From a virus: a stretch of DNA of 28,709 nt. Location: positions 1-28,709 of IMG/VR virus record IMGVR_UViG_3300009170_000020; one strand, given 5' to 3'. A program made the translations under genes and the position numbers. Each line of letters begins with the position of its first letter. Within the stretch, counting starts at the first letter, position 1. Shown here one piece after another: positions 1,453-19,276 of this stretch. The notes below the pieces were generated by a model. That model saw only the letters and a program-made list of their open reading frames with translations. It ran no database searches and was not told where the DNA came from.

Positions 1453-1841
1453 TATCCCCACGCCTCCTTTGACATCTCAATTGACTTTGCAACATTCGGA
1501 CACTGATCCGCTAAAGCTTTTGGAATAAAATAGCTAGGACCACCAGCATCAGTAGTTGCCATAAAAATTTCGACCCAGCGACCATCACAAATATAACGGC
1601 AAGAGTCAAAGGAATCAGGAGTCTCTGTAATACTCTTCCAACGATTCTCACCAACAGCTTCAACTGTTGTAGGAATATCTATAAGATCAATCAGGTTTTC
1701 AACTATATAAACATTACCGCCATAATATTCTTCGAAAGGCCTTTCGTCAATCGGAGGTTCATGGCACTCCATTTTAAGAAAGTAGTTATAGATATCATAT
1801 GGTGCAGATTCCAATTCACCAAAATTTTTATATTCTTTCAT
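1452..1841 (-). CDS. conserved phage protein of unknown function (129 aa)
   Basis: A soluble acidic protein beginning M-K-E-Y-K-N-F-G. Its start overlaps the RNA polymerase stop (ATG at 1841, TGA ending at 1838), so it is translationally coupled to the polymerase. The C-terminal third has a recognisable pattern: W-V-E-I-F-M-A-T-T-D-A-G-G-P-S-Y-F-I-P followed by C-P-N-V and ending in S-K-E-A-W-G. I recall comparable 'NAGGP.YF(I/V)P' proteins in marine and T7-like phages, always uncharacterised. It has four cysteines (in M-E-C-H, S-C-R-Y-I-C-D and Q-C-P) but no regular zinc-finger spacing. Position suggests an early or middle gene co-expressed with the polymerase; the role is unknown. Confidence 0.7.
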   Translation of the reverse strand: MKEYKNFGELESAPYDIYNYFLKMECHEPPIDERPFEEYYGGNVYIVENLIDLIDIPTTVEAVGENRWKSITETPDSFDSCRYICDGRWVEIFMATTDAGGPSYFIPKALADQCPNVAKSIEMSKEAWG

Positions 1842-4066
1842 GAGAAGCAGTACTCCGATTTTAAAATTAAATTAATATCTAAGTTACCGAATTCAATATT
1901 TGTAAGATCGCCATTAATATCTTTCATAATCTTCGTTAAAGGATCAGCAGCATATAATTCAACAAAAGTTTCTCTAATTAATTTGTATAGTTTAGGCATA
2001 TCTGCAAGTAGACAACCAAAAGAATCATGAATTGTACTTACTGGAAAGTCAGCACGATGGACAGTAATAGCAAGATGAGCTGCATCAAGAGAATGAATTG
2101 CATTTGGGGAAGCACCTTGAGATTGCTTTCCTTTAGATGGCTTGACATCTTCAATAAAACATATTGCAAGCTGCAAAGTATTAGAATAGTGCCCTGTAGA
2201 AATCTTAGTGGTAGGTGGTCCATATTGAATCCAAATCTTTCTTACTTTTCCTTCGGTGTAATTTTGAACGACAGGGAAATTTGTAATGGGGACTGTCCAG
2301 GAAAGGAAGCGGCCTTCTGCTTCAGCACGCTTTCCAGCTGCTTCAAATACAGAGAGCAATTGCATAGGTCTGCGGAGAGACACTCTACAATCTGCAAACA
2401 CTTCTCGTCCAAGGAAGGCTCCCCATTTGTGTTCCATGTGTAACAAAAGTTCAATTCCATGCTTTCTCGCATCATCGATCTGCTGCTCACCAAGCCCATA
2501 AGCTGTTCCTCCATAAGGGAGTGTCATAACATTGCGTTTAACTATCTTACGCCGCTGCTTAGGATCGATTACTTTCATCCAATAGACGGGAGCAGCCTTT
2601 TCGATAAGACCTCTATTTCTGTCTTTAAAACTTTGAATTTTGGATATGAGTTCTTTGCGTCTTTCACTCTTAGGCTCTGCACCATTGATTTGCTTTTTAA
2701 TATCGATCAGTTCATCAATAAGACACTCACAATCTTTGATTTCTTTTTTAGTATAAGTTTCTAAAATTTTAGTAAGTCTATTCCAAACATGATCAGCTAC
2801 ATATTTGTATAAGTCTCCAGGAAGTGTCAGAGGAACGAGATTAACATGAGGAGCAGTAAGTTCATCACGAGTAAGAGCAGATAGATGCTGACTACCGTTA
2901 TTAGAACCATCAATATAAGCTTCAAAATGAGATTCATAGTTATAGCTTTCTATGTTACTGCCTTGCCAAATTCTAAATTTCATTAACTCATTGCAGGCTG
3001 CAAGAAATTGCCAAGGTTTATCGGCTTTCATCCAGCCTTGATTTACTTTAGGATTTTCAGCATATGATAATAGAATTTCTTCGTTATCAATAGCCCATTC
3101 AAATCTGTCATTTAAAGGAATCTTATCTGTCTTTCCTTGGTACTTCTCACCGCTGTCACCGGCCCAATTAGAAGCTATAGCAACCATCAACCAAAAGAAG
3201 CCTTCTTTACCCATCGCTTTCTTATCGGCACGGAGTAATAATCCCCGCGCGAGATCTGAGCCTTGTTCGTGAAGATATGCCGTCGCCGGATAGCGTCTTC
3301 CTCGAAAGTCGTAGTAATAAAGATGATAGAATTGTTTTCCAAGAAATCTTTTTGCAATACTTCCAACTGCTTTAGCTTCCCGGATTTTGGTAGCTCGAGC
3401 TTCAGAGTTATGCAGTTCCCAGATGTCGGAGAACGCATCCGTTTTATTACGAAGCGCCCATAGATGCAATTCAAAGATTGTTTCATTGATAATCCATCCT
3501 ACAGTCTGAGCTTTATTTACACAATCGAAAACAATTGGGTGTGTTTCAGGCGTAAGTTTATCTAAGACATCCTTATTACCTGTTTTAACTAGGATCATTC
3601 CAGTTTCATGCTTAGTTGATTTCCAAGGAGTATAGGGTGTTTCAGAAGGAAGCTTTTCAATTTTTGAAGGTTCTAGATTATCCCAAAGCTTACAAAGTTC
3701 ATCATCATCTTGAACTTGAATAATATATGCATTATGCCCTTTAGCGCCTTGCCCTAGAATTACTTGAAGAATACCAGCAAGCTCAAATGTATAAAGAATA
3801 AAAGCACCAGTCCTTGCTGCGACTGCAGAGTCTCTTTTTAGTTTATACTTGTTCCTAATCGCATGGCCAATAGCGCAAATAACTTCTGTAAGATATATTG
3901 TATTTCGATTTGACCCTCTCTTTTGCCGAGTGTACAAATACAATACTGAAATAACAGTATCTAAGTAATCTTCAATATTTAAGTGTTTCAAATATTTCAG
4001 AGTACTCTTATCTGATATTTCGGTCTTTATACGAAAACTCAGAGAATCGATAATTTGGTTTCTCAT
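1838..4066 (-). CDS. single-subunit DNA-directed RNA polymerase, T7 family
   Basis: A 742-aa polymerase (T7 enzyme 883 aa, so the N-terminal domain is shorter) with all catalytic motifs. Motif A is Y-I-D-G-S-N-N-G-S-Q-H near residue 385, carrying the first metal-binding aspartate. Motif B is K-R-N-V-M-T-L-P-Y-G-G near 507-517, with the conserved K, R and YG. Motif C is T-I-H-D-S-F-G near 680, with the second aspartate. The C-terminus G-N-L-D-I-N-L-I-L-K-S-E-Y-C-F-S aligns with the T7 end, including the penultimate aromatic. The region just before A-P/S-P-N-A-I-H-S corresponds to the promoter specificity loop. The ATG at 4066 is chosen over a GTG at 4084 because TAGGAT precedes it and it overlaps the upstream stop as TAATG. 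It would transcribe phage genes independently of the host enzyme. Confidence 0.95.
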   Translation of the reverse strand: MRNQIIDSLSFRIKTEISDKSTLKYLKHLNIEDYLDTVISVLYLYTRQKRGSNRNTIYLTEVICAIGHAIRNKYKLKRDSAVAARTGAFILYTFELAGILQVILGQGAKGHNAYIIQVQDDDELCKLWDNLEPSKIEKLPSETPYTPWKSTKHETGMILVKTGNKDVLDKLTPETHPIVFDCVNKAQTVGWIINETIFELHLWALRNKTDAFSDIWELHNSEARATKIREAKAVGSIAKRFLGKQFYHLYYYDFRGRRYPATAYLHEQGSDLARGLLLRADKKAMGKEGFFWLMVAIASNWAGDSGEKYQGKTDKIPLNDRFEWAIDNEEILLSYAENPKVNQGWMKADKPWQFLAACNELMKFRIWQGSNIESYNYESHFEAYIDGSNNGSQHLSALTRDELTAPHVNLVPLTLPGDLYKYVADHVWNRLTKILETYTKKEIKDCECLIDELIDIKKQINGAEPKSERRKELISKIQSFKDRNRGLIEKAAPVYWMKVIDPKQRRKIVKRNVMTLPYGGTAYGLGEQQIDDARKHGIELLLHMEHKWGAFLGREVFADCRVSLRRPMQLLSVFEAAGKRAEAEGRFLSWTVPITNFPVVQNYTEGKVRKIWIQYGPPTTKISTGHYSNTLQLAICFIEDVKPSKGKQSQGASPNAIHSLDAAHLAITVHRADFPVSTIHDSFGCLLADMPKLYKLIRETFVELYAADPLTKIMKDINGDLTNIEFGNLDINLILKSEYCFS

Positions 4067-4206
4067 TAGAATCCTATAAACCACCTAGCAAATGTTCCAA
4101 ACATTTTATAACAGATAAAGATGAAGACGAGGTGTACGAAAGCGAATATTAATCTATGAAAAATAAGTAAGAAAAATAATTCGATTCCGTCCCTCAACTC
4201 ATCCAT
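4066..4206 (-). CDS. 46-aa membrane protein coupled to the RNA polymerase gene
   Basis: A short frame with ATG at 4206 and TAA at 4066-4068, the stop sharing a base with the polymerase ATG. GGAG (4215-4218) sits eight bases upstream of the start. The product begins M-D-E-L-R-D-G and continues as a nearly unbroken hydrophobic helix of about 25 residues (E-L-F-F-L-L-I-F ... F-I-F-I-C-Y). It then has a short amphipathic end (R-W-F-I-G-F). Histidine and arginine residues interrupt the helix around residues 17-18. I recognise no family. Good ribosome binding sequence, hydrophobic character and coupling support a real gene. Its ribosome binding site directly abuts the U-tract of the terminator at 4219-4249, so it is the first gene of the polymerase transcript. 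Confidence 0.6.
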   Translation of the reverse strand: MDELRDGIELFFLLIFHRLIFAFVHLVFIFICYKMFGTFARWFIGF

Positions 4207-4218
4207 TCTACATGCTCC

Positions 4219-4249
4219 AAAAAAAAAAAAATAAGGGATTAACCCTTAT
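4219..4249 (-). terminator. strong intrinsic terminator upstream of the polymerase module
   Basis: On the minus strand ATAAGGG and CCCTTAT pair around a 5-nt loop (TTAAT) and run directly into thirteen T residues (4231-4219). The tract ends at the ribosome binding site of the 46-aa gene. This marks the boundary between late (tail/lysis) and polymerase/replication transcription. There is no U-tract on the plus strand, so it acts in one direction. Confidence 0.9.
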
Positions 4250-4254
4250 CTTAA

Positions 4255-4648: not shown

Positions 4649-4680
4649 AAAAAAAATCTCTAAAAAAGAATAAGAGTAAA

Positions 4681-4708
4681 GGGAAGCCCACATCGCTGTG
4701 AGCTCCCC
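4681..4708 (-). terminator. GNRA-capped hairpin after the spanin-like gene
   Basis: On the minus strand a 12-bp stem with two G-U pairs is capped by GCGA, a GNRA tetraloop, 12 nt after the stop at 4721. The downstream RNA is CUUUACUCUUAUUCUUUUUU, only moderately U-rich. It is either a weak intrinsic terminator or an RNA stabilising or processing hairpin in the 5' leader of the 108-aa gene. Confidence 0.55.
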
Positions 4709-4720
4709 TGTTACCGCCGG

Positions 4721-5011
4721 CTAATCGGTGATATTGTCATCAAAGGGATTAACCTTTGACAACAAACGTCGTGTCCGATAACCAACCGTACCCTGATACT
4801 TTTCTTCTACCGCCGCAATGCGGTCGGTATAGTACACAAGGCGCTCGTTCTTCTCAAGAACCTCTTCCTCGAGATCCTTGATTCGTGCCTGGCAAAGATC
4901 CGTCATCACATTGGTCGCAGCCAACTCTTCCTGAGTTTTTGACAGACGGTGAGTCTGTACGCCGGCCATCGTCATCAGCACAATAAGCATCGTCGCAAAG
5001 AACGTCTTCAT
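4721..5011 (-). CDS. inner-membrane spanin-like protein (Rz-like candidate)
   Basis: The ATG at 5011 has an ideal AGGAGG five bases upstream; a more distal ATG at 5041 has none. The 96-aa product starts M-K-T-F-F followed by a hydrophobic segment (residues 4-18, A-T-M-L-I-V-L-M-T-M-A-G-V). A charged heptad-like helix then covers roughly residues 23-75 (K-T-Q-E-E-L ... D-L-E-E-E-V-L-E-K-N-E-R-L). An N-terminal anchor plus periplasmic coiled coil is the architecture of i-spanins, which act with an outer-membrane lipoprotein in the last step of lysis of Gram-negative hosts. I find no Rz1-like lipobox frame inside or next to it, so the call rests on topology and position in the lysis region. The repeated promoter-like element lies directly upstream. 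Confidence 0.55.
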   Translation of the reverse strand: MKTFFATMLIVLMTMAGVQTHRLSKTQEELAATNVMTDLCQARIKDLEEEVLEKNERLVYYTDRIAAVEEKYQGTVGYRTRRLLSKVNPFDDNITD

Positions 5012-5046
5012 AAGTCCTCCTATTGGACTATTACTAAGCAAGAGTT

Positions 5047-5093
5047 AAGGGGTGAGGGTATATCATATAAGATACCCAAAAACCCGCAGTTTA
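5047..5093 (-). promoter_or_regulatory. promoter-like bipartite repeat, copy 2
   Basis: On the minus strand TAAACTGCGG, an 8-nt spacer, then GTATCTTATATGATATAC and CCTCACCCCTT. It matches the copy at 5918-5964 at 28 of 29 positions in the long block and 9 of 10 in the TGCGG block, with identical spacing. It starts on the TAA of the 84-aa gene and lies 36 nt ahead of the ATG at 5011. It is likely a promoter for the phage RNA polymerase. TGCGG plus TATGAT at 16-bp spacing could also fit a host sigma70 site, and the TATC..GATA symmetry would fit an operator. Confidence 0.6.
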
Positions 5094-5345
5094 CTTATGA
5101 GTGGTTACCTCATAAGAGTTGCCTACAGTCTGCCTGACAGATATAATTCTTCTTTCCGTACCTGTCGGTGTACGTGTCGTCACTTCGTACGTGACAGGAT
5201 TGACCTGTCGTACTGTGACTGTAGTCTTTTGACCTGAGGCGATTACTGCAATCGCTTCTTTTTCTTTGACGACGATATCAGCACCTTCAGCAATTAAGCC
5301 GGTGAAGATACCTATAATGAAAACAAGTATGACTATTTTTCTCAT
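5091..5345 (-). CDS. small secreted protein of unknown function (84 aa)
   Basis: The ATG at 5345 has AAGGA seven bases upstream; an ATG at 5351 is too close to that site. The product begins M-R-K-I-V-I-L-V-F-I-I-G-I-F-T-G-L-I-A-E, a typical signal peptide or N-terminal anchor with cleavage likely after about residue 18-22. There is no lipobox cysteine, so it is not an obvious o-spanin lipoprotein. The mature part is rich in valine and threonine (T-T-V-T-V-R-Q-V and Y-E-V-T-T-R-T-P-T-G-T-E) with a beta-strand repeat pattern, Y-E-V-T-T occurring twice. It lies between two small genes and the spanin-like gene. An envelope role in lysis or superinfection is possible but unsupported. Confidence 0.6.
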   Translation of the reverse strand: MRKIVILVFIIGIFTGLIAEGADIVVKEKEAIAVIASGQKTTVTVRQVNPVTYEVTTRTPTGTERRIISVRQTVGNSYEVTTHK

Positions 5346-5354
5346 TAGCATTCC

Positions 5355-5669
5355 TTATCTGGATACTGCGATTTTTCCAGAAATTGTTCTGCAAGCCTTT
5401 AGGTATTCAATAGCGTACATCACTAAAGTCTCGTAAGAACCCCAACCATTTGCCGGGTTGAACTCCTCGTAGACTTCAGGCTGTAACACTAATTTCATAA
5501 GGCCTGCTTCAAGCTTCGGCAAAACCTCTTTAGTTGTTTTGCCTGCAGCTTCCCACATCACTTCATACAACCCGCATTCCATTGCCATCTTCGCCAAGTT
5601 GTGAGTGATGTTCCCATACCAAGCTTCTTCAGTGTCTTCGTTGGGGATTATCGTGATATCAAGACTCAT
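5355..5669 (-). CDS. conserved phage protein of unknown function (104 aa)
   Basis: The start M-S-L-D-I-T-I has GGGAG eight bases upstream. The protein carries the sequence N-I-T-H-N-L-A-K-M-A near residue 20 and F-N-P-A-N-G-W-G-S-Y-E near residue 71, followed by Y-L-K-A-C-R. I recall a family of roughly 100-residue phage and bacterial proteins with the same 'D-x-N-(I/V)-T-H-N-(L)-x-K-M ... N-G-W-G-x-Y' layout and no assigned function. It is soluble and acidic. It follows the cysteine-rich 71-aa gene by 11 nt and precedes the secreted protein by 9 nt, so the three form one transcription unit behind the promoter-like element at 5918-5964. Confidence 0.7.
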   Translation of the reverse strand: MSLDITIIPNEDTEEAWYGNITHNLAKMAMECGLYEVMWEAAGKTTKEVLPKLEAGLMKLVLQPEVYEEFNPANGWGSYETLVMYAIEYLKACRTISGKIAVSR

Positions 5670-5680
5670 ACAATTTCTCC

Positions 5681-5896
5681 CTAGTCAATTGACTGTCCTT
5701 TGCATCTATTACAAACAACACGCTCATAGGAAAGCATGTCGATGACACTTAATGTCTTGTCACCAAAGTAACGAGACGAGAACTCTTTCTTTGTCCATCG
5801 AAAGATAACACGAAGAATACCTTTCAATGAACGTTCGTGTGTCCCATAAGGAACATCGTTACAACACGAGCAAAGTTGCATACGATAAAAACTCAT
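5681..5896 (-). CDS. small cysteine-rich protein, possible zinc-binding (71 aa)
   Basis: The ATG at 5896 is preceded by AAGGAG at good spacing. The protein has C-S-C-C at residues 9-12 and C-N-R-C at 62-65, a pair of knuckles that could bind one zinc ion. Between them is a basic segment (R-V-I-F-R-W-T-K-K) and a short acidic loop. I do not recognise a family. It is the first gene downstream of the promoter-like element at 5918-5964 and should be the first product of that transcript. A nucleic-acid or regulatory role would fit a small basic zinc protein, but that is a guess. Confidence 0.6.
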   Translation of the reverse strand: MSFYRMQLCSCCNDVPYGTHERSLKGILRVIFRWTKKEFSSRYFGDKTLSVIDMLSYERVVCNRCKGQSID

Positions 5897-5917
5897 ATCA
5901 CTTCTCCTTAATGTTTC

Positions 5918-5964
5918 AAGGGGTTAGGGTATATCATATAAGATACTTCTTTTTCCGCAATTTA
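5918..5964 (-). promoter_or_regulatory. promoter-like bipartite repeat, copy 1
   Basis: On the minus strand TAAATTGCGG, an 8-nt spacer, then GTATCTTATATGATATAC and CCTAACCCCTT, ending 21 nt before the ATG at 5896. It follows immediately after the endolysin terminator. A 29-bp block (5918-5946) recurs at 5047-5075 with one difference. Conservation across a presumed start site and beyond is typical of single-subunit RNA polymerase promoters; this assignment is inference. Confidence 0.6.
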
Positions 5965-5965
5965 A

Positions 5966-5993
5966 AACCCTCCAGATTTTACTCTGGAGGGTT
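5966..5993 (-). terminator. intrinsic terminator after the endolysin gene
   Basis: On the minus strand an 11-bp perfect stem (AACCCTCCAGA / TCTGGAGGGTT) with a 6-nt loop begins 3 nt after the endolysin stop and is followed by TTAAATT. The two stem Ts plus this flank make a short U-tract. It separates the holin/endolysin transcript from the promoter-like element at 5918-5964. Confidence 0.8.
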
Positions 5994-5996
5994 CTT

Positions 5997-6335
5997 TTAG
6001 ACAAATCGCTCAAAGTGAGGAACGTCTTTGAATGACTTCCAATTACCACCCCATCGATTCTTTTGATTCAGGCTTTCCCAATAATCACCAATAGGTTTTA
6101 ATAAAACCATATCGTATGTAAGTTTTCCATCTTTGAAAAAATAAAGATCAATAGCACAACTTTTTAAATGCATACTATTCATAGTCTTACTACGACCTGA
6201 CTTAATATACAGCTGTTGCATTTCAAGAGGACGCTGCAATTCTCTTGCAACAACTACTAATCCTGTAGTATTGATAAATGCTCCTAGTTTTAACAAATCT
6301 TGAAAGAATGCTACTTGTTCATTTATGAGTGACAT
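5997..6335 (-). CDS. endolysin, M15-family peptidoglycan peptidase
   Basis: A compact 112-aa catalytic domain with no cell-wall-binding domain, the usual form in phages of Gram-negative hosts. The family signature S-x-H-x(6)-D is present as S-M-H-L-K-S-C-A-I-D (zinc ligands His56 and Asp63). The C-terminal W-G-G-N-W ... D-V-P-H-F-E supplies the third zinc ligand, His107, and the likely catalytic Asp104. The glycine usual two residues before A-x-D is serine here. M15 phage enzymes cut the L-Ala/D-Glu or a D-Ala peptide bond of peptidoglycan. No signal peptide is seen, so it needs a holin to reach the wall. The start at 6335 lies inside the end of the holin-like gene (16-nt overlap), with AGAGG upstream. 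A terminator follows the stop. Confidence 0.9.
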   Translation of the reverse strand: MSLINEQVAFFQDLLKLGAFINTTGLVVVARELQRPLEMQQLYIKSGRSKTMNSMHLKSCAIDLYFFKDGKLTYDMVLLKPIGDYWESLNQKNRWGGNWKSFKDVPHFERFV

Positions 6336-7420: not shown

Positions 7421-7520
7421 CCTAGGGGCTGCAGGCGAGACGCCGGGCCAGGGCATGAGTGGGGTACTGGCCCCGCCCGGAGCGCCCTGCCTGCGCCACC
7501 TCCGGAGGACTGGTGGCCTG
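7421..7520 (-). other. GC-rich structured intergenic island, possible ncRNA or RNA element
   Basis: This 100-bp stretch has 76 G or C bases while the flanks are strongly AT-rich. It contains nested inverted repeats. GCAGGC (7431-7436) can pair with GCCTGC (7489-7494), enclosing GGGCCAG (7445-7451) with CTGGCCC (7467-7473). CCACC (7496-7500) can pair with GGTGG (7512-7516), and CCTCCGGAGG (7499-7508) is a palindrome. Alternative pairs exist, such as CCGGGC with GCCCGG. It lies between the tail and lysis genes and carries no convincing gene. A structured RNA, a transcription pause/processing element, or a foreign insertion are all possible. I do not recognise it as a tRNA or known RNA class. 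Confidence 0.55.
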
Positions 7521-7526
7521 TTTCGC

Positions 7527-8087
7527 TCAGCTTGTACGGTCGTGGAGCATCCGAACCACCAAGACAAGTGTCTTCAAAAGGTTACGTGCAGAAGCTAAAT
7601 CGGTAATATTGTTATTGATCCAAGTCTCAATCTGAGCAGGAGTAGCATTCTGAAGAGCAACCCAACGAGGATCAGCTTCTTTCGCTTCTTTAACTGAATC
7701 AATGACAAGACACGTTTTAGGCACATCATTTACATATTTACCAACAGCTTCAAAATGATAAGAAATTGCAGAAGCTTTGACAATTGTTAATACACCTTCA
7801 ATCACAGCAGTAGGCACTGAATTAACTGTCATAAATACATCTTCAGGTAATCCGGAGATTTGAATAGGTGTGTTAATTTCAACACTAGCAGGAATTGTGT
7901 AGCTTAAAGGAACACGATCTGCTAATAAACCATTCGAATCTACATAAAAGAGAGAAGAATCAAAGACACCTTCGTAAACACCAAATCGAAATGTTTCATA
8001 GCTAAGAACGAGGTCTTCGTCATCTTCACAATAGACTAAACCTACCACTTCTCTAGATAGTTTTCTATATAATGTTCCTGTTTTCAT
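7527..8087 (-). CDS. tail-associated protein downstream of the fibre, unknown (186 aa)
   Basis: The ATG at 8087 overlaps the stop of the giant fibre gene as TAATG, so the two are translationally coupled. Residues 1-110 are beta-rich. The C-terminal part reads T-P-A-Q-I-E-T-W-I-N-N-N-I-T-D-L-A-S-A-R and continues as a hydrophobic helix (L-L-K-T-L-V-L-V-V-R-M-L). Similar helical endings occur in small proteins encoded next to phage tail genes. Candidates are a fibre assembly chaperone or a small virion component. I do not recognise a defined family. No membrane topology is expected, since the C-terminal helix is short and amphipathic. The GC-rich island begins 7 nt after its stop. Confidence 0.55.
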   Translation of the reverse strand: MKTGTLYRKLSREVVGLVYCEDDEDLVLSYETFRFGVYEGVFDSSLFYVDSNGLLADRVPLSYTIPASVEINTPIQISGLPEDVFMTVNSVPTAVIEGVLTIVKASAISYHFEAVGKYVNDVPKTCLVIDSVKEAKEADPRWVALQNATPAQIETWINNNITDLASARNLLKTLVLVVRMLHDRTS

Positions 8088-11000
8088 TATGCATCCTTAA
8101 TAGCGGTTAAGCTAATAAACTTTTGAGCCAATAGATTTGTACCACCAGAATCTGAGTAAATGTATGCGACAACTGTTGCATTATAATCAACAACATTTGT
8201 AGTAGCAGGCGTAGATAACGATACTATTCTAGTTGTCGAAATTGCATTTATACCAGAAGGCATTACAACTGCATTTTGACTTTCCTGCATACCTGTCGCA
8301 GATATCACTAGAAATTTAATATAATAAGAACTTCCTATGGATGTTGTCGTTGGTGTATACCAGTTACCTATAAGAGTTACAGTACCGTTTACATTTCTAT
8401 AAACTTCTCCATTAGACCAATACTGGATAGCCGCAACAGTAGCCGTTGCAGTGTTAACACGGGTGGCAAAAGAGTAGTAGTCATCAGCAGTTAAAGAAGC
8501 ATCAGCAATAATATTTGAAGGATTGATATAAATCTTTAATTGAGTACCATCCCAGAAAAGATGATTAGCTGAGGAGTTACCGATAGAAAATTTAGGTGTA
8601 CCTCCATCAGAACCTAAGAAGAAACCAGTTCCCGTATTAAATGCTGTTTGGCCACTTCTTAGATGACCACCAGTAGTAATTTCAACTGTGCCCAATGTAC
8701 TCTTAATAGCAGAAAGTGTTGTTGCTTGAAGCTGAGCACCTACAATTGTACCACCTGATATTCTATCACCATGAATAGTACCAGCAGTCATGTGATTAGT
8801 CTGAATACTACCTGCTCTGATGATAGTACCATCAATAGCCTCTTCTAAACGTAAATCTTGAAATTCATGATATCCAGAAGAGCCGCCTAGATTGCCAATT
8901 GCAACTACTTGCATCCATTTAGCATTAGTTCCATTAGTATATGAAGAAAATAATAAATCCGCTCCAGAACCTGAGGGTCCAACTGTACCATAGTAATTAG
9001 CCCAAGATGTTCCTGGTGTGGCTCCGATTGCACCTAAGTACCAATAAGAACCATTACCACTAATATTAGCAAAGTTAGAGTCTAAAAGAGCAAGACCTAT
9101 ATAAGCAGTACCATTAGCTGTTGCACTTCTTCTGATATAAGATTTAACGCGATAGACTGTATTCACATTGATAGGAAAAAGACGTCTAGAGAGAATACTG
9201 GTTTCTGATGTACCGCTTCTAAATACCTTAGCACCAACAACACCATCTGTAACAGTCGTAAAGATAGGTGTACCAACTGACGCTTTCCAAGTATCTACTG
9301 GAGCTTCAAAACCAGGATCTTCACTGATTGTAGTACCAGTTACTACTGGTGACACCGGATACCATTTACAATTGGTTGCTGTACCATCCCACGTCGTTGC
9401 AGTAGAAGTCCATTTGTAAAGTTTGTCAGCTTCTGAAACAGGAAGGGAACGTGTATCGCGTACAGTAAGGTAGACTGTTCTTCCCTGGAAGAGATTAGAA
9501 GAAGGCAAACTACTGAGAATTTCATAACCACCTTTGTTCTTAGTGACAACAAAAGTCTTTTGGATAACGGTCGTGCTACGAGTCATAATCATAGTGAAAC
9601 TTTCTTGGTCAGTTGTCCAAGACGTACCACTGATTGAGTATACACCAGAAGTTTCATTAATTGTTAAAGTAAGACCGTTTTGTGTTTTAGACCATGAAGC
9701 ACCGTTATCAGTACCTTGGTAAATTGTAAAGATATTACCAGTACCAGTTAAGACAGTGTCGACATAAACCTGGAAAGTACCGTTAGCAGGAGTATAATCG
9801 TAAATAGAGCCATCTGCATATGCCCATAGAGATGCATTGCTTATAGACAATTCTGCAGCGATTGTTCCTGATGCAGCTTCACCATCTAAAATATTAGACA
9901 ACGTAATACTGTCATAAACAATAGTTGTTACAGTTGGCTGCGTAGGAACAAGTGTTAGGCTAAGCACACCATCAGAGGATGGCTTAACAGACATGCCATA
10001 AGAGCGTGTTCCTGAATAAGTTCCAATTTCTAATTTAGCAGAAGCCTTGCAGAATCTTACAACACTTTCATCACTGACTGTAGAGGGTGCAATAGTTTGA
10101 GTTAGATTGGTCCAACCAGTTGTTCCTACTGCTGTAGCATCATATAATTGATCTGCTAATAGTAAACCATAATCACTTGATATTGCAACAGATGCAGAGC
10201 TTGCTGTAGTATTAGCGCTATCTATATCTGCATATAGTAACACATTTGCTAATGTTTGAGTAGCATTTTTAAGAATATATACTGTAGCTGATTGTACTTC
10301 GTTAGCAATACCAGTCGAAGTTAAATAATAATTATTACCTTTGGTCTTTCCACTTAGCATGGTCTGATTCCAACCATATGTTATAATATGGTGACCATTA
10401 GCATTTGACTGAGTAGAACCAATTTTAGTACCATTAACATTAGCATACTTAATAGTGAAATCTTCAACCATTGTAGTATCTTCAATAAGTACTTTAGCAA
10501 GAACAAGAACGTTAGTATCTGAAATACCTGTTGCCCAAGGAATACTTCCTAGATTAAAATTAGGATCAGTAGAACCTGCAGCAGGAGCAAACATAATAGA
10601 TCTTGCCACAAGTCTATCATTATTAGTAACAGTACCGAATGTTGCAGTATAGGTTTTAGAACCAGTATTAGACCCGATCAGATGCTTAACAGTGCTACTC
10701 GTAAACACGTAGGTAGGGCCAGCATACTCGAAGAGCTCAGTACCTAAACTCCAAGAATATGTTTGGTTATCTATCGGACTTACAATTGTTGTCAACACTA
10801 AGGAATCGGCAGTCGAGGCATTAATTGTTGAGTCAAAAGTACTTAGATCAGTCAGTCCTGTTCCAGTGTCAGTCGCCGTATAAGTTGGAGAAGTTGTCTG
10901 AGCTGCATTAGTTAACCAAAAGAGTGTTAATTGACCATTAGCCGAACCGCCATAGCCTGAAGTAGCAAAAGTTATATTTGTTTGTCCTTTAGATAGGCCA

Positions 11001-14000
11001 CCACCAGTAAGCATCGCTTCTGTCCATATCCAGTGGCAAACATGCACATCTGTACCAGCATTTGAGGCAGACCAGACCGGTGCAGCAGATGTGCCACCTA
11101 ATGCTACACCATTAACTCCACCAAAAGCTACTGTCCAAATAGGATCACCAGCAGCAACTTCTGTTGTAAATTCAGCAACAAGTAATGCATTTGGAACGTT
11201 CGGAAAAGTAACGTTTGCTATAGAATAATCAGCAGTAGAAGCCTTTTCATAATTGGCAAAAGAATAAACATCTGCTTGAGTACTTGCACCACCAGAGTAT
11301 GTTGATTGAGAATGAGTAGAAACAATAACGGTTTGACTACCTGCAACAGTCGCAGACATATCTGCAAGTCTAATTACTCTTGAAGTACTTGAACTGAAAT
11401 CTGCAGCATTGTATGTAGCTGTGTAACCATCACCCTCAATACCATCAGTTTCATCGTAGAGTTTAATATTACCAGAACTCAAAAGAACATCAGCATTTTC
11501 AGCTAACGAATGTGCTTCAATAGTTAGAGATCCAGTATTATTCTTAATTGCAGTACCATTAAGTGGTTTAATATAGTAGAATGTTGGAGAAACACCATCT
11601 GTGCCGTTTGTACCATCTGTGCCATCTGTACCATCTGCACCATCTTTAATCTTAACAACAGAGATTAAATCGGAAACACCATCTTGTAAAACTTTAACAA
11701 CAACACCTGTTGTGGCTCCAGTAGTAATTGCAGTATTAAAATTAGCACCGGTCATAGTAATAGTAGTGCCAGTCATTGTAAACTGATTGGCACCAGGAGA
11801 ATTATCTACAATTGTACCAGAACCTGTTAAGTAAACACCTGCATCTAATTCTGTAGTACCATCCATTTCATACAAATAGACTGTCTTAACACCAGTAGTG
11901 TTTTGAGTAGTTACTGTAAAATTAATTGTTTGACCAGCAACGACCGTATCTGAAGAATTATAGGAAACAGTTTGCTTATCGGCAGAAACGTAAAGTAACT
12001 TGGCATTAGTACCTGCTGCGCCATCTAATGATTTAGCAAAAGTCTGTTGCTTTGTAAATGAGAATGCAGTACCATCAGCTCTTTGTCCAGAAATAGTATA
12101 TACGATATCTGCTACGGATGTGCTCATTCCTGAATGGTCACCATACCTGGCATACCTATTAGGCGTAGTACCAACTGAAGATTTTGTACCCGGAGCAATT
12201 GTTCCTACAGTACCGTCTGCAGCAGTGACGTTCCATGTACTAGGAGAGGTTCCTGCAGCATTATAATCAAGTTGAGTAGAACCTTCATATACAAAAATAT
12301 CGGTACCTGAACCAGTATAATTTACAGTACCACCAGCAGTCGTTGGACATGTATGAGCCTCATTTGTTAAGACTATTGTAATTGCACTATCGCCATCAGC
12401 ACCTGTATTACCAGTTGCACCTGTTTTAGATTTACTAAAAGACTGTGTCTTAGTTAAATTAAAGGCTGTATTGTTTGCTGAATATCCAGAGATATTATAA
12501 ACGATAGAGGATGCATCGGTACCAGAGGCTACACCAGAATGAACACCAACTGTAGCGGTAGTAGTACCAGTTCCAGAGATTGTTCCAACTGTAATATTAG
12601 CGGGCGTGGTTGTAAAAGTCCATTGACCCGCTGTTGGACTGGTTGTGACATAAGTTAAAGCAGTAATACCTTCATAAACATAAAGATTTGTTCCAGATCC
12701 TGCATAGGAAGAAACAACGCCAGTAACGCTGGCAGGAAATACATGAGCTTCATTAGAAAGAACAGCAGTAAAAGGTGAAGTACCTGAAGCACCAGAAGCA
12801 CCCTTAAAGACTACAGGTATTGTTTGAGTATCAATTAATGTAGCCGTTGCTACAGTTGCTCCATCATATAACTTAACTTCATACAGGCTTTCATCAGCAC
12901 CTAGTGCTGGCGCTAATGTAATACCGATTGAAGACGCCGTTGCTGTTACAGCTTCTGTTTCGTCATAACCAATACCAGTTACTGTAATATAACCCCAATC
13001 AGATGTTACGCCAGCAACGGTCTCTTTACCTTTAATTGAAACAGTTGTATGAGCACCATTTGTAACTCTGTCTGGAGAGTCCTTAAATACGACAGGTGCT
13101 GAAGTGTATATCCATCTAAAAGAAGCATTTGTACCATCTGCACCGGCAGTACCAGTTTTAGATTTACTGAAAGTTTGAGTTTTAACAATTGTAAATGGAA
13201 GGTTCTGGCGATTATAACCAGTAATAGTATAAGTAATACTTGCCGTATTTTGAGCATTGATAAAAGTATTATGATCGCCAATCGTTGCTGTAGTCGTTCC
13301 AGTTCCTGATAACGTACCTGCTGTAATATTAGAAACAGCAATAGCTATCGTATACTGGCTTACTACAGGTCCACTTGTAACGTAAGTTAATAATTGATCA
13401 CCATCATAAACATAAAAGTTTGTACCAGAGCCAACATAAGTAGAGACAACACCTGTGGAAGATGCTGTAAATGTATGATTCTCATTTGAAAGGACAGCAG
13501 ACATTCCTGGAGTACCAGCAAGAGATTTAGAGAATGTTTGTAATTTTGTAAAAGTATACTCAACTGCATTAGCATCTCTGCAAATAATAGTGTAAGTAAT
13601 TGTTGCCTGGTTAGCAGTCATATTAGAATGGTTTGCATAAGTCCTAACAGTCCCCGTTCCAGAAGCAGTTCCAGCGGTAATATTTGAAGCACTTGCACTT
13701 ACGCTAAATGTATTTGCACCAGAGAGCCCATATGTCAATGCTGTTGTACCATACCAAGCTTTAATTGTAGTACCAGAATTTGCATAATCTGTAATTACAC
13801 CTAAAATGCTAGCTGCAAATGTATGAGCTTCATTCGAAACACTTACAGTGAAAGCACTTGCGCCGCTAGTACCTGATGTACCGTCTTGTAATTTAACAAC
13901 AGTAAACTTATCTGAAACACTATCTGCAGTAATAGTTCCTGTAATTGTAACAGAACTTTGTCCTGCAAAGTCAGCTTCATGCAAGTATACAGTATTGCCT

Positions 14001-17000
14001 GTAGTTACAATAGTAGAGCCTGCTGTTGATGTTGCTCTTAAACTAGTAGCAGGCGTTGTGGACCAAGTTACAGCATTAGTAGTATTTTGCTTACTAGTTG
14101 TAATTGTGATATACTGACCAGAAGGTGTTGCTGTTCCAGATCCATTATATGTAAAGGTTTCTTTATCAGGAATTACTCTGAGAGTTATTGCATTTGCTCC
14201 TGACGTACCTGTAGCGCCTTGTTTTGCTTTTGTAAGAGATTGAACTCGAGTAAATGTAGTTTCAACACCATCACTATTTTTAACAGTAATTGCAAAAGAA
14301 ACATTCGCTGTATCAGCTAGCATTGCAGAGTGATCTGACCATCGACGTGTATATGTAGATACTGTCGATGCAGTTCCAAGTGTTATATTAGATGGCGTTG
14401 GTGTAATTCTAAAAGATGGACTCGCATAAGTGACTGTGTCATCATAAGGAACTGGCGTTGTCCCTTCATAGACTCTAATATCTAAACCTGAGCCAGTATA
14501 TATACCGTTATTTCCAGCAGAATCTGTAGGGATTGTATGAGATTCATTGGATAAGATAATAGTAATTGCATTTTCACCATCTGTACCTGAGGTACCTGAA
14601 GAACCATCGTAAAGTTTAACAATAGTTATTTCATCAGTATAAGTATCTGCTCCGGACCTGCAACGGATTCGTAGAGAAGTGTTAGTACTCCATGCTGCAT
14701 TATCGTAGGCTAATATATAAGTAGAAGTATTCTGAGTACCACCTAAATTTGCCCAAGCAGTACCATTCCAGTATTCCCAATCATAAACGCTTAGTGATCC
14801 GAAAAGAGTCGCAGTTAATGTGATAGAGGAAACAGTAGGTACTGATTGTCCAGCAAGGAACTTAAAGGCTTGTTCTCCATTAACCACTACATAAGCAGCA
14901 GCCGTACCGGAGGAGCCTGTAGCACCTTTAAAAACGACAGGGATAACTTGAGTATCTAAAAGTGTAGTCTTTACAGCATCGTTGTAAAGCTTAACGGTAT
15001 AATTTAGTTTGTCAGCACCGTTTGCAATAGCTGTAGTAATCGTTGTAGCTGTCGCTGTTCCAGCTTCAGTATCACCATTAGCTGTAACAGTAAGATAACC
15101 ATAATCTGTCGTTGTTGCGCCAATTGTTCTCTTACCAGTAACTGTGATATTGGTATGAATGCCATCTGTTGTAACATCAGGAGAATCTTTAAAAATAACT
15201 GGGGCTGTAGTATGGAGCCAATATACTGTAGAGTCTGTGCCTGAAGTGCCTGTTGCACCTTTGAAAACAACGGGAACTGTCTGAGTATCGAGTAATGTAG
15301 CACCTGCAACGGTTGCTTGATTATATAATTTTACAGTATAAACTGATTCATCATCAGCACTACCTGGCGTCTTTGTAATTGGATAAGCATTACTAGCTGT
15401 TGTAGACTCAGTTTCATAATCACCAGTAATTGTTACATAGCCATGATTTGTAGTTACATCACCAACAGTTCTCTTTCCAGTAACGAGAATACTAGTATGA
15501 ACACCATCTGCCGTTCTACTTATTGAATCTTTGAAAATAACAGGAGAAGAAATGTCTAACCAATAAGCTGTATTATCGTCACCAGGCGCACCTGCTTTGG
15601 ATTTAGAGATACTAAAGACTTTGTCAAGAACAACAGTATTATAAGTAGCTCTTAATGTAAAAGTTTCAACGTCTGTAGCTGCTGTCCATGTTCCAGATAA
15701 ACTATAGCTACCATCAGATGCCCCAGATTCAATAATGGTCATTACTAAACCATTCTGAGTCTTTGTCCAGCTAGCTCCACCATCTATGCCATCAACAATA
15801 CTAAATGTAGAAAATTCTGTTACGTCAGAAAGTCCATAAAAGACTTTAAAGTTACCATCAGAACCAGTAAGAACCGCACCTGTACCATCAGCATAAGCAG
15901 GAACAGTATGAGCTTCATTAGTTAGATAACCAGAAACTAATGGACCCATTAGATTCGTAATATTATCCTTTGTAGGATGCGTACCATCCATTACATAGGT
16001 ACCACCTGGTAAGAAATCAAAACCATCTGTGGTAGCTTCAATAGCAGTATTATAATAGCCTAGTAATAAGCCTTGCTTAGCAGAACTGGCAACATGTTGA
16101 AATTCTGCTCCGTCATAAACTCTAAGTCCAGTCAGTGGATCATAAATACCTGCAAGACCAGTATCTGCTCCACTGAAGCCGTCGTAATGAATGACACCAA
16201 CAGCTAAGTACCATTTACCAGTAGTAAGAATAGCGCCTTGACCGTTTACAAAATAGGGATTAGCAACTAAAACTCCACTTAAGTTTTCAATATTATTGAG
16301 AGGTTCCCATCCAAGGTAAATATTATTTGAAGTACTAGAACGGCGTTTAATCCAGACATATGAAATATAAGACTTTTTAGGATCTACATCGAAAGGATGA
16401 ACCCATCTACCAAACCAATTATTTTCTGTAGAAGCAGTAGTACCATCACCAGAAATTCTTAGTAGAGGCGCTGTTGTTCCATAAGGATCTACCTGACTCG
16501 TAATAATGCTATTAGCTAGCAATCCTTCGTCATGACGCCATCCGCCCATTGTAGTTCTAATAGTTCCTGTAAAGCTATTTGAAGGCGTTAGATTGGTAGC
16601 ACCTGTATTGTAATTATTCAGAATAACACTTTGAACAGTAACTTGTGTTGGGCCAGAATTAAAAGCATTAACAAAAACAATATTGGATAATTTTCCAGAT
16701 TTAGTTAAAGTTCTAACACCAAAAATTGCACTATAAGCATTTATTGCAGGAAGAATAAAGAAGTTCTCAGTTGTTCTTCCAATTTCAATAAATAAAGGCA
16801 CATTAGTTTCTGGATCGAAATAAGCGATATCTTTATCAGTAAATGCATAAATAATAAAGCATTCAAAATCACTCAAAGAAATTAATGGCCAATCTAATCG
16901 TCCTGCTGATGTCAAAGAGCTTACTGTTGGATCAGTGGAATAAGTAACATAGCGAGGTGCAGGAACAGAATAATCATAAATATTAGGAGGTTGAATATAA

Positions 17001-19276
17001 GCATCATCCTTAACATTCCAAGCAAGAAATGTATGATCAAAACGCTTTAAAACAACTTCACAGAGGAAATCTCCAACTAACTTAACACCTTCAACTCTAC
17101 AATATAACGCCGTTCCTGTCCCTAGCTCTAGTGTTGTAGAGTTTACACGAACAATATCGCCAGGCTCAGGAATACCAATTGTAATACGAAATGTTAAGTT
17201 TAAACCAAATGCACCACGACTAGTACGTACTAACTCCTCTGCTTTAGCTAATGCATGATAGTAATCAGTAATACCTTCTGCGTAGATTTCTGTTTCTAGT
17301 TCCATGCCATTGTCTTCGGCAAGGTATGTTCTATATAGTGTATTACTAACAGTCTTTTCTCTAAAAGCATCATAGCTGATTTCTCTAGTAGACCATACAA
17401 TAAAATTACCTTTCAGCAGTCTAAAAGCGAAACCACGTCCTTTTGTAGCAGAGCCTTGATCACCATCAGTCTCATCACCAAGATCTGTTGCCGTAACAAC
17501 TAGTCTGAAGAGACGGTCTTGTGTACCATCCAATGCCTCGCCAAGATCTGTTAAAGATTGTAATTGATTATTAGTTTGTTTTAAAATCTTAGTTCCTGAA
17601 GAACCAGAAGCAATTAACGTACCAGTAGGGTTTGCAATAGTCGTTACATAAAGACTCCATGAGCAAGTGTCATCAGAAGCATATTCAATTACAAGCGGAC
17701 CTTGGTTCTCTGCTTCTAAAATAAATCTATACTCAAGACTCGTAACATTATCATTACCGTTCCATACAGCATAATTATTTAATAGTCTACCACCGCCGTT
17801 ACCTTTTTGGTCTTCCCAACCATTTGCTGAAATACCTGGAGGATATCGTTTTCCTCCAATACCAACAAAATAAGTTTCTGTCTTATTGATAGTGGGTTCT
17901 AGTTTAGGCGGCCAAGAGGCTGTATCATCTTTAAAATCTTCAGATTCGTTTGCAAATTTAACAGTTGCAAAATTATAACGATCACTAGCAGATGGAAATG
18001 TAATATTTACTTCTTGATCTAATACAAGATTAGAGTCGTCTAAAGTTAGTACAGAAAGTGCAGCAGTTTGAGCTTCTGAAGTAGGATAAACAAGACTTAC
18101 TTTATATTTTCCCTGGGACCAAATAAGGCGAGCATCTCCCATTGTAGAAAGAATTGTTTCAATATTTTCTCTAATTGGACGTTTGGTGTCAAGTGTAGTA
18201 TTACATTCATATAGTGGCAAATCTCTGGTTAAGCTGTTTGTACCAGATACGCCACCGCCGCCATCTGTCGGTTTATAGATTTTACCACCAACGGCAACGC
18301 CAGATTGAACAACAGTCGCCGCAGTTATAGCAGCATTATAGAAACTTTCTAAATTGATTTCCGTTATATCTAACCCTTTTCCAGAGATAGGATCTAATAA
18401 GTAATCTAAAAGAACAAAGACAGGATTATTTGAGTATTCATAACCATTGTTATAAATACCGCCAGTAGAATTTAAAGCATAAACATAATTAGGAGAAACA
18501 CCCGTTCTGGTAATTTTTCTAATTAATTTACCTTCTACAAGGAATTGAATTGTAGGTGTACCAGAGAATTGAGGATTTTTTCTATCAAGACGGATTGTTA
18601 CAGAAGCATTTGCAATATCGTAAAATTTAGCTCTTCTTCGTTCACCAAAATTAGCAGCAAAAATAAGATCTTCTTGTCCAACAGCTTTGCCATTATGCAT
18701 GTCAATTCGAAGAGCTGCTTCAATCTTGTTATAAGCACTTTTATAGATGTCAGTACCTAATTGCGGGTCATCTAGGTATTTAGCTTCATCAATAATCACA
18801 TCATGAGTTTTATAAATTGGTCCTTGACACAATGCTTGTTGAAAATAAAGAAATTCATTCTTTTTACCATCAAAGCTTTTTGTCAATCGTGTATCATGAG
18901 CATTAATATAAACAGTCCAGCCACCACCACGAGTGTCTACTGTTACTACATATTCTGTTGAATCAGAAGCTGGCGTAAGTCCAGATAAGAAAGTTTTATC
19001 AACAGTAGTACCAGGATCAGTAAATACAAAACCACCTGTGCTATTATGATAGACTCTTGCACCACCAATTTTAGATCTACCGTAAACAATAGCAAGATTA
19101 GTCGCCATTCCCTCTACAGGAATTTCATAACCTCGTCTTGCTTCTGCTGCTCTTTTAGCAGCATCTTTTTGCTTTTTGGCTTGTTGAATAGAATAAGCAG
19201 CGCTTGCAACACTTACTGCAAGGCTGGCCCATGCTGCAATTGCTGTTGCAGAAATACCAGAGGCTACACCAGCCAT
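8087..19276 (-). CDS. giant J-like tail tip hub and central fibre protein (3729 aa)
   Basis: Residues 1-30 form a hydrophobic Ala/Ser-rich helix. Residues ~55-760 carry the tail-tip J / Phage-tail_3 hub pattern, with I-R-E-N-I-E-T-I-L-S-T-M-G-D-A-R-L-I-W near 370 and F-K-D-D-T-A-S-W-P near 450. Residues ~890-1108 look like a ligand-binding jelly roll. Residues ~1115-2560 form a long array of repeated ~100-residue beta modules joined by G-x-T/S-G linkers. Two related domains follow at ~2680-3108, then a second jelly-roll-like domain (~3315-3475). The region at ~3485-3525 has the A-G-S-I-Q / A-G-T-I-H / G-G-T-I-V repeats typical of J C-termini. Lambda J is 1132 aa, so this version is over three times longer. 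J proteins close the tail tip and contact the host receptor. The start overlaps the upstream stop (TAATG). Confidence 0.88.
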   Translation of the reverse strand: MAGVASGISATAIAAWASLAVSVASAAYSIQQAKKQKDAAKRAAEARRGYEIPVEGMATNLAIVYGRSKIGGARVYHNSTGGFVFTDPGTTVDKTFLSGLTPASDSTEYVVTVDTRGGGWTVYINAHDTRLTKSFDGKKNEFLYFQQALCQGPIYKTHDVIIDEAKYLDDPQLGTDIYKSAYNKIEAALRIDMHNGKAVGQEDLIFAANFGERRRAKFYDIANASVTIRLDRKNPQFSGTPTIQFLVEGKLIRKITRTGVSPNYVYALNSTGGIYNNGYEYSNNPVFVLLDYLLDPISGKGLDITEINLESFYNAAITAATVVQSGVAVGGKIYKPTDGGGGVSGTNSLTRDLPLYECNTTLDTKRPIRENIETILSTMGDARLIWSQGKYKVSLVYPTSEAQTAALSVLTLDDSNLVLDQEVNITFPSASDRYNFATVKFANESEDFKDDTASWPPKLEPTINKTETYFVGIGGKRYPPGISANGWEDQKGNGGGRLLNNYAVWNGNDNVTSLEYRFILEAENQGPLVIEYASDDTCSWSLYVTTIANPTGTLIASGSSGTKILKQTNNQLQSLTDLGEALDGTQDRLFRLVVTATDLGDETDGDQGSATKGRGFAFRLLKGNFIVWSTREISYDAFREKTVSNTLYRTYLAEDNGMELETEIYAEGITDYYHALAKAEELVRTSRGAFGLNLTFRITIGIPEPGDIVRVNSTTLELGTGTALYCRVEGVKLVGDFLCEVVLKRFDHTFLAWNVKDDAYIQPPNIYDYSVPAPRYVTYSTDPTVSSLTSAGRLDWPLISLSDFECFIIYAFTDKDIAYFDPETNVPLFIEIGRTTENFFILPAINAYSAIFGVRTLTKSGKLSNIVFVNAFNSGPTQVTVQSVILNNYNTGATNLTPSNSFTGTIRTTMGGWRHDEGLLANSIITSQVDPYGTTAPLLRISGDGTTASTENNWFGRWVHPFDVDPKKSYISYVWIKRRSSTSNNIYLGWEPLNNIENLSGVLVANPYFVNGQGAILTTGKWYLAVGVIHYDGFSGADTGLAGIYDPLTGLRVYDGAEFQHVASSAKQGLLLGYYNTAIEATTDGFDFLPGGTYVMDGTHPTKDNITNLMGPLVSGYLTNEAHTVPAYADGTGAVLTGSDGNFKVFYGLSDVTEFSTFSIVDGIDGGASWTKTQNGLVMTIIESGASDGSYSLSGTWTAATDVETFTLRATYNTVVLDKVFSISKSKAGAPGDDNTAYWLDISSPVIFKDSISRTADGVHTSILVTGKRTVGDVTTNHGYVTITGDYETESTTASNAYPITKTPGSADDESVYTVKLYNQATVAGATLLDTQTVPVVFKGATGTSGTDSTVYWLHTTAPVIFKDSPDVTTDGIHTNITVTGKRTIGATTTDYGYLTVTANGDTEAGTATATTITTAIANGADKLNYTVKLYNDAVKTTLLDTQVIPVVFKGATGSSGTAAAYVVVNGEQAFKFLAGQSVPTVSSITLTATLFGSLSVYDWEYWNGTAWANLGGTQNTSTYILAYDNAAWSTNTSLRIRCRSGADTYTDEITIVKLYDGSSGTSGTDGENAITIILSNESHTIPTDSAGNNGIYTGSGLDIRVYEGTTPVPYDDTVTYASPSFRITPTPSNITLGTASTVSTYTRRWSDHSAMLADTANVSFAITVKNSDGVETTFTRVQSLTKAKQGATGTSGANAITLRVIPDKETFTYNGSGTATPSGQYITITTSKQNTTNAVTWSTTPATSLRATSTAGSTIVTTGNTVYLHEADFAGQSSVTITGTITADSVSDKFTVVKLQDGTSGTSGASAFTVSVSNEAHTFAASILGVITDYANSGTTIKAWYGTTALTYGLSGANTFSVSASASNITAGTASGTGTVRTYANHSNMTANQATITYTIICRDANAVEYTFTKLQTFSKSLAGTPGMSAVLSNENHTFTASSTGVVSTYVGSGTNFYVYDGDQLLTYVTSGPVVSQYTIAIAVSNITAGTLSGTGTTTATIGDHNTFINAQNTASITYTITGYNRQNLPFTIVKTQTFSKSKTGTAGADGTNASFRWIYTSAPVVFKDSPDRVTNGAHTTVSIKGKETVAGVTSDWGYITVTGIGYDETEAVTATASSIGITLAPALGADESLYEVKLYDGATVATATLIDTQTIPVVFKGASGASGTSPFTAVLSNEAHVFPASVTGVVSSYAGSGTNLYVYEGITALTYVTTSPTAGQWTFTTTPANITVGTISGTGTTTATVGVHSGVASGTDASSIVYNISGYSANNTAFNLTKTQSFSKSKTGATGNTGADGDSAITIVLTNEAHTCPTTAGGTVNYTGSGTDIFVYEGSTQLDYNAAGTSPSTWNVTAADGTVGTIAPGTKSSVGTTPNRYARYGDHSGMSTSVADIVYTISGQRADGTAFSFTKQQTFAKSLDGAAGTNAKLLYVSADKQTVSYNSSDTVVAGQTINFTVTTQNTTGVKTVYLYEMDGTTELDAGVYLTGSGTIVDNSPGANQFTMTGTTITMTGANFNTAITTGATTGVVVKVLQDGVSDLISVVKIKDGADGTDGTDGTNGTDGVSPTFYYIKPLNGTAIKNNTGSLTIEAHSLAENADVLLSSGNIKLYDETDGIEGDGYTATYNAADFSSSTSRVIRLADMSATVAGSQTVIVSTHSQSTYSGGASTQADVYSFANYEKASTADYSIANVTFPNVPNALLVAEFTTEVAAGDPIWTVAFGGVNGVALGGTSAAPVWSASNAGTDVHVCHWIWTEAMLTGGGLSKGQTNITFATSGYGGSANGQLTLFWLTNAAQTTSPTYTATDTGTGLTDLSTFDSTINASTADSLVLTTIVSPIDNQTYSWSLGTELFEYAGPTYVFTSSTVKHLIGSNTGSKTYTATFGTVTNNDRLVARSIMFAPAAGSTDPNFNLGSIPWATGISDTNVLVLAKVLIEDTTMVEDFTIKYANVNGTKIGSTQSNANGHHIITYGWNQTMLSGKTKGNNYYLTSTGIANEVQSATVYILKNATQTLANVLLYADIDSANTTASSASVAISSDYGLLLADQLYDATAVGTTGWTNLTQTIAPSTVSDESVVRFCKASAKLEIGTYSGTRSYGMSVKPSSDGVLSLTLVPTQPTVTTIVYDSITLSNILDGEAASGTIAAELSISNASLWAYADGSIYDYTPANGTFQVYVDTVLTGTGNIFTIYQGTDNGASWSKTQNGLTLTINETSGVYSISGTSWTTDQESFTMIMTRSTTVIQKTFVVTKNKGGYEILSSLPSSNLFQGRTVYLTVRDTRSLPVSEADKLYKWTSTATTWDGTATNCKWYPVSPVVTGTTISEDPGFEAPVDTWKASVGTPIFTTVTDGVVGAKVFRSGTSETSILSRRLFPINVNTVYRVKSYIRRSATANGTAYIGLALLDSNFANISGNGSYWYLGAIGATPGTSWANYYGTVGPSGSGADLLFSSYTNGTNAKWMQVVAIGNLGGSSGYHEFQDLRLEEAIDGTIIRAGSIQTNHMTAGTIHGDRISGGTIVGAQLQATTLSAIKSTLGTVEITTGGHLRSGQTAFNTGTGFFLGSDGGTPKFSIGNSSANHLFWDGTQLKIYINPSNIIADASLTADDYYSFATRVNTATATVAAIQYWSNGEVYRNVNGTVTLIGNWYTPTTTSIGSSYYIKFLVISATGMQESQNAVVMPSGINAISTTRIVSLSTPATTNVVDYNATVVAYIYSDSGGTNLLAQKFISLTAIKDA
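9950..11230 (-). repeat. two diverged tandem domains within the fibre protein
   Basis: The segments encoded at about 11230-10590 and 10520-9950 share the same landmarks in the same order. These are A-L-L-V-A-E-F-T / V-L-V-L-A-K-V-L, then V-N-G-V-A-L-G / V-N-G-T-K-I-G. Next come W-T-E-A-M-L-T-G / W-N-Q-T-M-L-S-G, and a late G-S-K-T-Y / G-T-R-S-Y strand. Each is about 200 residues. They look like an internal duplication of a beta-sandwich, but DNA-level identity is low, so the duplication is old. Confidence 0.6.
11590..15930 (-). repeat. array of repeated beta modules with collagen-like linkers in the fibre
   Basis: Type C modules open with N-E-A/S-H-T and G-S-G-T-x-x-x-V-Y-E-G and start near 15910, 14545, 13830, 13480, 12755 and 12360. 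Type A modules open with V-I/V-F-K-D-S and close with P-V-V-F-K-G (about 15555-15255, 15225-14925, 13110-12795). Other modules close with V-V-K-L-x-D-G (about 14900-14600, 14190-13870, 12000-11640). Links are G-A-T-G-T-S-G-like. The array ends with a Gly-X-Y tract (11595-11650) whose DNA is a 9-bp GATGGNACA repeat. Confidence 0.75.

Follow-up and report, generated by a model that had tools for sequence, protein, structure and literature searches.

Probable promoters of a T7-like RNA polymerase in an uncultured siphophage group

Results

Two copies of a repeat in a viral genome very probably serve as promoters for the T7-type single-subunit RNA polymerase (RNAP) that the phage itself encodes, judging from comparison with related sequences, and repeat and enzyme would very probably constitute a new polymerase-promoter pair, in which the repeats act as start signals for the virus's own T7-like RNAP. 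The element itself, its conservation, its co-orientation with the RNAP gene, its restriction to one RNAP clade and its alignment to the T7 register were all established by computation. The stretch of DNA analysed, referred to as the window, is the 28.7-kb virus record IMGVR_UViG_3300009170_000020 (28,709 nt), in which all substantial gene-like ORFs lie on the minus strand, including structural and tail genes and the RNAP gene. A megablast search of the window against phage records returned no match.

Following the direction of the genes, the window contains a tape measure gene (20481-26564), a very long tail-tip/fibre gene (8087-19276) and an M15-type endolysin gene (5997-6335). A terminator-like 13-bp hairpin (5964..5995, minus strand, -22.3 kcal/mol, z -6.4) lies between the endolysin gene and one copy of the repeat, P2 (5918..5963, minus strand), which it may insulate from the upstream operon. 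Three minus-strand ORFs follow P2, encoding 71 aa with CxxC motifs (5681..5896), 104 aa belonging to phrog_4019 (5355..5669), both with no assigned function, and 86 aa (5091..5351), the stop codon of the last overlapping the TAAAC located upstream in the other copy, P1 (5047..5093, minus strand). Past P1 are a minus-strand ORF of 96 aa (4721..5011), which starts at an ATG with AGGAGG and whose putative membrane anchor and coiled coil make it spanin-like by appearance only, a terminator-like hairpin (4680..4709, minus strand, -22.7 kcal/mol), a second such hairpin with a T-run 5' of the RNAP gene (4228..4252, minus strand) and the gene for the T7-type single-subunit RNAP of 748 aa (1838..4084, minus strand), the proposed reader of P1 and P2. 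Variable cargo occupies the segment between the endolysin and RNAP genes, both in the window (4721-5896) and in the corresponding interval of relatives, with a different small ORF after each promoter and many ORFs having membrane or signal-like starts. The window also has a very G+C-rich stretch of approximately 100 bp (7427-7530), in a genome of 38% G+C, which is located between the small genes and the tail-tip region; its folding is no better than that of shuffled versions, and an exact-match search of IMG/VR with a 29-nt piece of it returned nothing from elsewhere.

A single base distinguishes the 29-bp blocks of the two copies (5047-5075 and 5918-5946), and beyond an 8-nt spacer of unconserved sequence each is accompanied by a 10-bp block (CCGCAGTTTA and CCGCAATTTA), just as an earlier note on this DNA had described. 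On the minus (coding) strand both copies read TGCGG-N8-GTATCTTATATGATATACCCTNACCCCTT, a pattern which, at up to three mismatches, is found exactly twice in the window and never in 100 dinucleotide-preserving shuffles. P1 is composed of a TAAAC-TGCGG box with GCG at 5087-5085, the spacer and the core GTATCTTATATGA at 5075-5063, with its predicted +1 G at 5064, while P2 has a TAAAT-TGCGG box with GCG at 5958-5956, the spacer and the same core at 5946-5934, with its predicted +1 G at 5935. Both copies are intergenic and face the transcribed strand just 5' of gene starts, in line with the same note: the predicted +1 positions lie 53 nt (P1, 96-aa ORF) and 39 nt (P2, 71-aa ORF) before start codons preceded by Shine-Dalgarno sequences on the minus strand. 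P1 comes directly after a stop codon and P2 after the terminator-like hairpin that ends the endolysin operon. A stem-loop at the 5' end of the predicted transcripts was looked for and is absent from both window copies.

The label of "late genes" given to the genes downstream is less well supported, as those directly following the two copies are small variable accessory or lysis-adjacent ORFs and then the RNAP gene. No copy is close to the structural genes of the window, the total in the window being two, and a promoter further away would be needed to transcribe them.

We scanned IMG/VR with the window RNAP and obtained 71 loci encoding RNAPs 26 to 82% identical to it. The element is found on the RNAP strand, in one to three copies, upstream of nearly every RNAP with at least 41% identity. 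Specifically, all 38 loci with such an RNAP and more than 3.5 kb of upstream sequence (window included) carry upstream copies, the nearest at 0.9-4.7 kb, and the six loci whose RNAP is 26% identical have no copies. The bipartite element, at up to two mismatches, gave 78 unique occurrences in relatives versus none in the reversed control. A scan of the IMG/VR RNAP relatives using the 13-nt core GTATCTTATATGA as sole query found 71 distinct exact copies versus 0.04 expected, with GCG at -23..-21 in 65 of them and at least two of its three bases in all 71, at one fixed spacing. This core-only scan rules out the GCG box as an artefact of the search pattern.

Comparison with relatives also revised the extent of the repeat. 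Both 29-bp copies exist as described, but the conserved unit runs only from -28 to about +4, TAAAYGCGSAAAWNNRGTATCTTATATGAWA, since TACCCTNACCCCTT, which makes up the 3' portion of the 29-bp block, is absent from the relatives and private to the window's phage. The first six bases of that portion (TACCCT) occur together with the core in one further contig, which is the single extra contig recovered by the first search pattern, the full 21-nt window core including TACCCT.

Searching from the element towards the polymerase gave a concordant picture. A shorter bipartite pattern matched at least 119 stretches and, of 25 new contigs tested among the matches listed, 22 encode the RNAP, in every case co-oriented with the element; in the remaining three element-bearing contigs, from records of 36-41 kb, the RNAP was sought and not found. 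Matches were present in 22 of 22 whole records searched, nearly all on one strand, with two to six in each at up to three mismatches, a threshold at which matches are roughly at the level of the reversed control; related whole records carry about 2-5 copies in 40-80 kb. Co-orientation alone is weak evidence, because most genes are co-oriented in these phages. Among RNAP genes of relatives, two contain group I introns (Rfam RF00028; L044:11055-11288 and L046:11553-11749), and in other relatives the RNAP matches are stretched by approximately 0.7-1 kb.

In relatives, the median distance from an element to the first start codon with a Shine-Dalgarno sequence is 43 nt, and the first ORFs downstream belong mostly to unrelated clusters, so coding conservation cannot account for the element. 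This placement bears on the idea that the repeat has no role in transcription and serves instead in, for example, replication, packaging or recombination, or stems from a recent duplication. Such a reading would suit the low number of copies per genome (2-5 in 40-80 kb), and we regard it as the least probable of those considered, given the position of the elements shortly before Shine-Dalgarno genes and, for the window copies, directly behind a stop codon (P1) or a terminator-like hairpin (P2), their strict co-orientation and their correlation with the RNAP clade. Moreover, the flanks of the two copies are not homologous, which argues against recent duplication.

Properties of the sequence downstream of the predicted start are consistent with transcription beginning there. 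Within the window's clade, stems of at least 5 bp starting exactly at the predicted +1 were found in 14 of 57 distinct elements; 1000 within-sequence shuffles gave 1.7 on average and never more than 6, and a harsher swap control never more than 12. The folding energy likewise reaches its minimum exactly at this +1.

Genes in long related records are arranged as RNAP, DNA polymerase, exonuclease and primase; a third promoter follows some distance beyond, and after it come terminase, portal, capsid, tape measure and tail tip, and finally the promoter pair that precedes RNAP. In the records examined, this third copy lies approximately 16-19 kb beyond the RNAP gene and 11-13 kb before the terminase gene, and in three of four it is upstream of the same 184-aa gene (L076:15680, L081:14320 and L090:3398). 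In the two examined closely, L076 and L081, it comes after a gene resembling a DHH-type phosphoesterase. The low number of copies per related record and the position of this third copy call for caution in judging the expectation of further copies near late genes; in the window, neither of the only two copies is by a structural gene.

We aligned the element to the T7 register by taking the G of ATATGA as +1, which gives agreement with T7 at G-11, T-8, C-7, the A/T-rich -4..-1 and G+1. In this register the element has GCG at -23..-21, an A-rich part at -19..-15, G-11, C-7, an A/T-rich -6..-1 and GA at +1/+2, and the frame from -17 to +6 thus contains G-11, C-7, an A/T-rich melting region and G+1. 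The register was checked on phi1.1A, where the annotated position is the expected G.

TATGAW also resembles a -10 box, and its spacing from the TGCGG box is plausible, for which reason the earlier note had left room for host sigma70-type promoters, read by the bacterial RNA polymerase with TATGAT as -10 and the TGCGG region as -35. No -35 signal is present, however, as the best -35 matches average 2.73 of 6 versus 3.0 in shuffles. The sixth base of the putative -10 box is A or T about equally, both P1 and P2 are missing from the list produced by a sigma70-type scan of the window, and 13 contiguous bases are near-invariant across many phage lineages and absent where the RNAP has diverged. The same note had left an operator open on account of the TATC..GATA symmetry; such a site would serve a phage repressor or activator, and in P1 of the window GGGTATC-TTATAT-GATATACCC does form a near-perfect inverted repeat. 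Nevertheless, this symmetry is not kept in relatives, since no more than 33 of 78 have the GATA and 3 of 78 the long palindrome arm, and the conserved part is asymmetric, the GCG box having no mirror copy. The lack of a -35 signal and the occurrence of the dyad in a minority of relatives make both readings unlikely, host promoters very much so and an operator slightly more so.

Promoters read by the phage RNAP are, on the other hand, compatible with the features of the enzyme. The window RNAP matches Pfam RNA_pol (4.5e-64), has an N-terminal part shorter than that of T7 and has intact catalytic residues, with the equivalents of T7 D537, K631, Y639, H811 and D812 all present. In T7 RNAP, R746 reads position -7. 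N748 of the same enzyme reads -10/-11, R756 reads -9 and Q758 reads -8 (PMC5937735). The window residues equivalent to T7 R746 and Q758, K616 and Q638, are invariant among 25 relatives, and the element keeps C-7 and has T at -8, as in T7. The R756 equivalent has changed, in most cases to T, and the element has A at -9 where T7 has C; likewise, the N748 equivalent has changed, in most cases to W or Y, and the element has T at -10 where T7 has A. The specificity-loop residues, which were matched at approximately 20% identity across a loop with an insertion of approximately 11 residues relative to T7, therefore appear to change in step with the promoter bases. In an AlphaFold model (pLDDT 87.6), which matches the T7 RNAP-promoter complex 1CEZ with a TMq of 0.74, K616 and Q638 are carried by strands 613-620 and 636-643, and these strands would fit the specificity hairpin as expected.

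The earlier proposal that the repeats are the cognate promoters of the T7-type RNAP thus gained support from the fixed bipartite architecture, exclusive co-orientation and occurrence with one RNAP clade in more than 70 related contigs, and further from the T7-register alignment and the correlated specificity-loop residues.

Discussion

The promoters of T7, T3 and SP6 (Autographiviridae) share with the element a frame of approximately 23 bp, an A/T-rich upstream part, C-7, A/T-rich -4..-1 and G+1; G-11 is common to T7 and SP6, and recognition of the T7 type is through the specificity loop. As the earlier note had recognised, the element is unlike the T7 consensus, its core GTATCTTATATGA differing at -10, -9, -6 and -5, and it matches none of the T7, T3 or SP6 consensus sequences. 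This mismatch is a different specificity within the T7-type kind, the consensus defining the T7 subgroup and not the kind. Unlike in those phages, the A-rich part of the element is shifted upstream (-19..-15), the initiating sequence is GAWA and only 2-5 copies are present per 40-80 kb siphophage record. Furthermore, T7, T3 and SP6 promoters have no GCG box at -23, whereas the element has an almost invariant one at -23..-21. Cognate promoters have been inferred for phage RNAPs mined from metagenomes, in a search that required a T7/SP6-like core CACTA at -7..-3 (PMC13029058), which would miss the present element because it has CTTAT. We found nothing on Naomviridae promoters or on the element motif in a literature search whose coverage mostly excludes subscription journals.

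The nearest isolates by RNAP are DSS3_VP1 and DSS3_PM1 (Naomviridae, Noahvirus), with RNAPs 37% identical to that of the window. Related records share with DSS3_VP1 the terminase (approximately 57% identity), portal and MCP and the order RNAP-DNApol-exo-primase. The window-type element was not found in DSS3_VP1, the isolate checked, and both phages have a different, T7/SP6-like motif, RATAGGKKRCGTTAAAGA, in the same G-11/C-7/G+1 frame, one variant of which equals SP6 TAGGTGAC at -14..-7. The shared frame supports the predicted register independently. As a de novo repeat search of DSS3_VP1 was dominated by terminal and fibre-gene repeats, the motif was obtained from intergenic gaps and then used in a scan: the consensus RATAGGKKRCGTTAAAGAGGGGGA has approximately 15-16 copies in each phage at up to two mismatches, all on the gene strand, compared with none in the reversed control. 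This predicted promoter set is unmarked in the feature tables of MN602266.1 (DSS3_VP1, L091/L092) and MN602267.1 (DSS3_PM1, L094/L095). Like the window element, the predicted DSS3 promoters have GA at +1 within the G-11/C-7 frame and, at many sites, a strong 5' stem-loop that begins near the start; unlike it, they follow the consensus RATAGGKKRCGTTAAAGAGGGGGA, lack a GCG box and occur also ahead of the portal and phoH genes. Direct terminal repeats of approximately 127 bp (L092:1-127 and the end of L091) are present in the DSS3_VP1 record, as is a split terminase gene with group I-like sequence between its parts.

From these results we infer how the RNAP would recognise the element, where +1 lies, how transcription may be timed and that expression of the RNAP may be under positive feedback. 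The RNAP would bind a 25-bp bipartite site composed of the core GTATCTTATAT (-11..-1) and, roughly one helical turn further upstream, the GCG box (-23..-21) and the A-rich part (-19..-15); RNA would start at the G of ATATGA (+1 G, +2 A). From P2, after the hairpin closing the tail/lysis operon, transcription of the three small genes would proceed, and P1, just past them, would drive the next unit, towards the RNAP gene. The promoter pair may thereby feed the RNAP gene too, making positive feedback possible; in the window, two terminator-like hairpins stand between P1 and that gene.

What makes the element unusual is its GCG box, which is firmly conserved and set off from the core by one helical turn in the upstream direction. 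It is quite possible, if somewhat short of probable, that the RNAP reads a bipartite promoter in which this box is obligatory, by means of an enlarged specificity loop or of a second phage protein; if true, this would be a mode of recognition longer than that of T7, T3 or SP6.

For uncultured siphophages of a widespread group, the element and its RNAP offer a pair that is open to direct testing and seems orthogonal to T7, T3 and SP6; the DSS3_VP1/PM1 phages provide a second such pair. They also give a handle on the layout of transcription in a siphophage with its own RNAP, with 2-5 promoters per genome and one pair ahead of the RNAP gene. Lastly, a GCG box beyond the known T7 footprint raises the question of whether the upstream reach of single-subunit RNAPs can exceed that of the examples studied.
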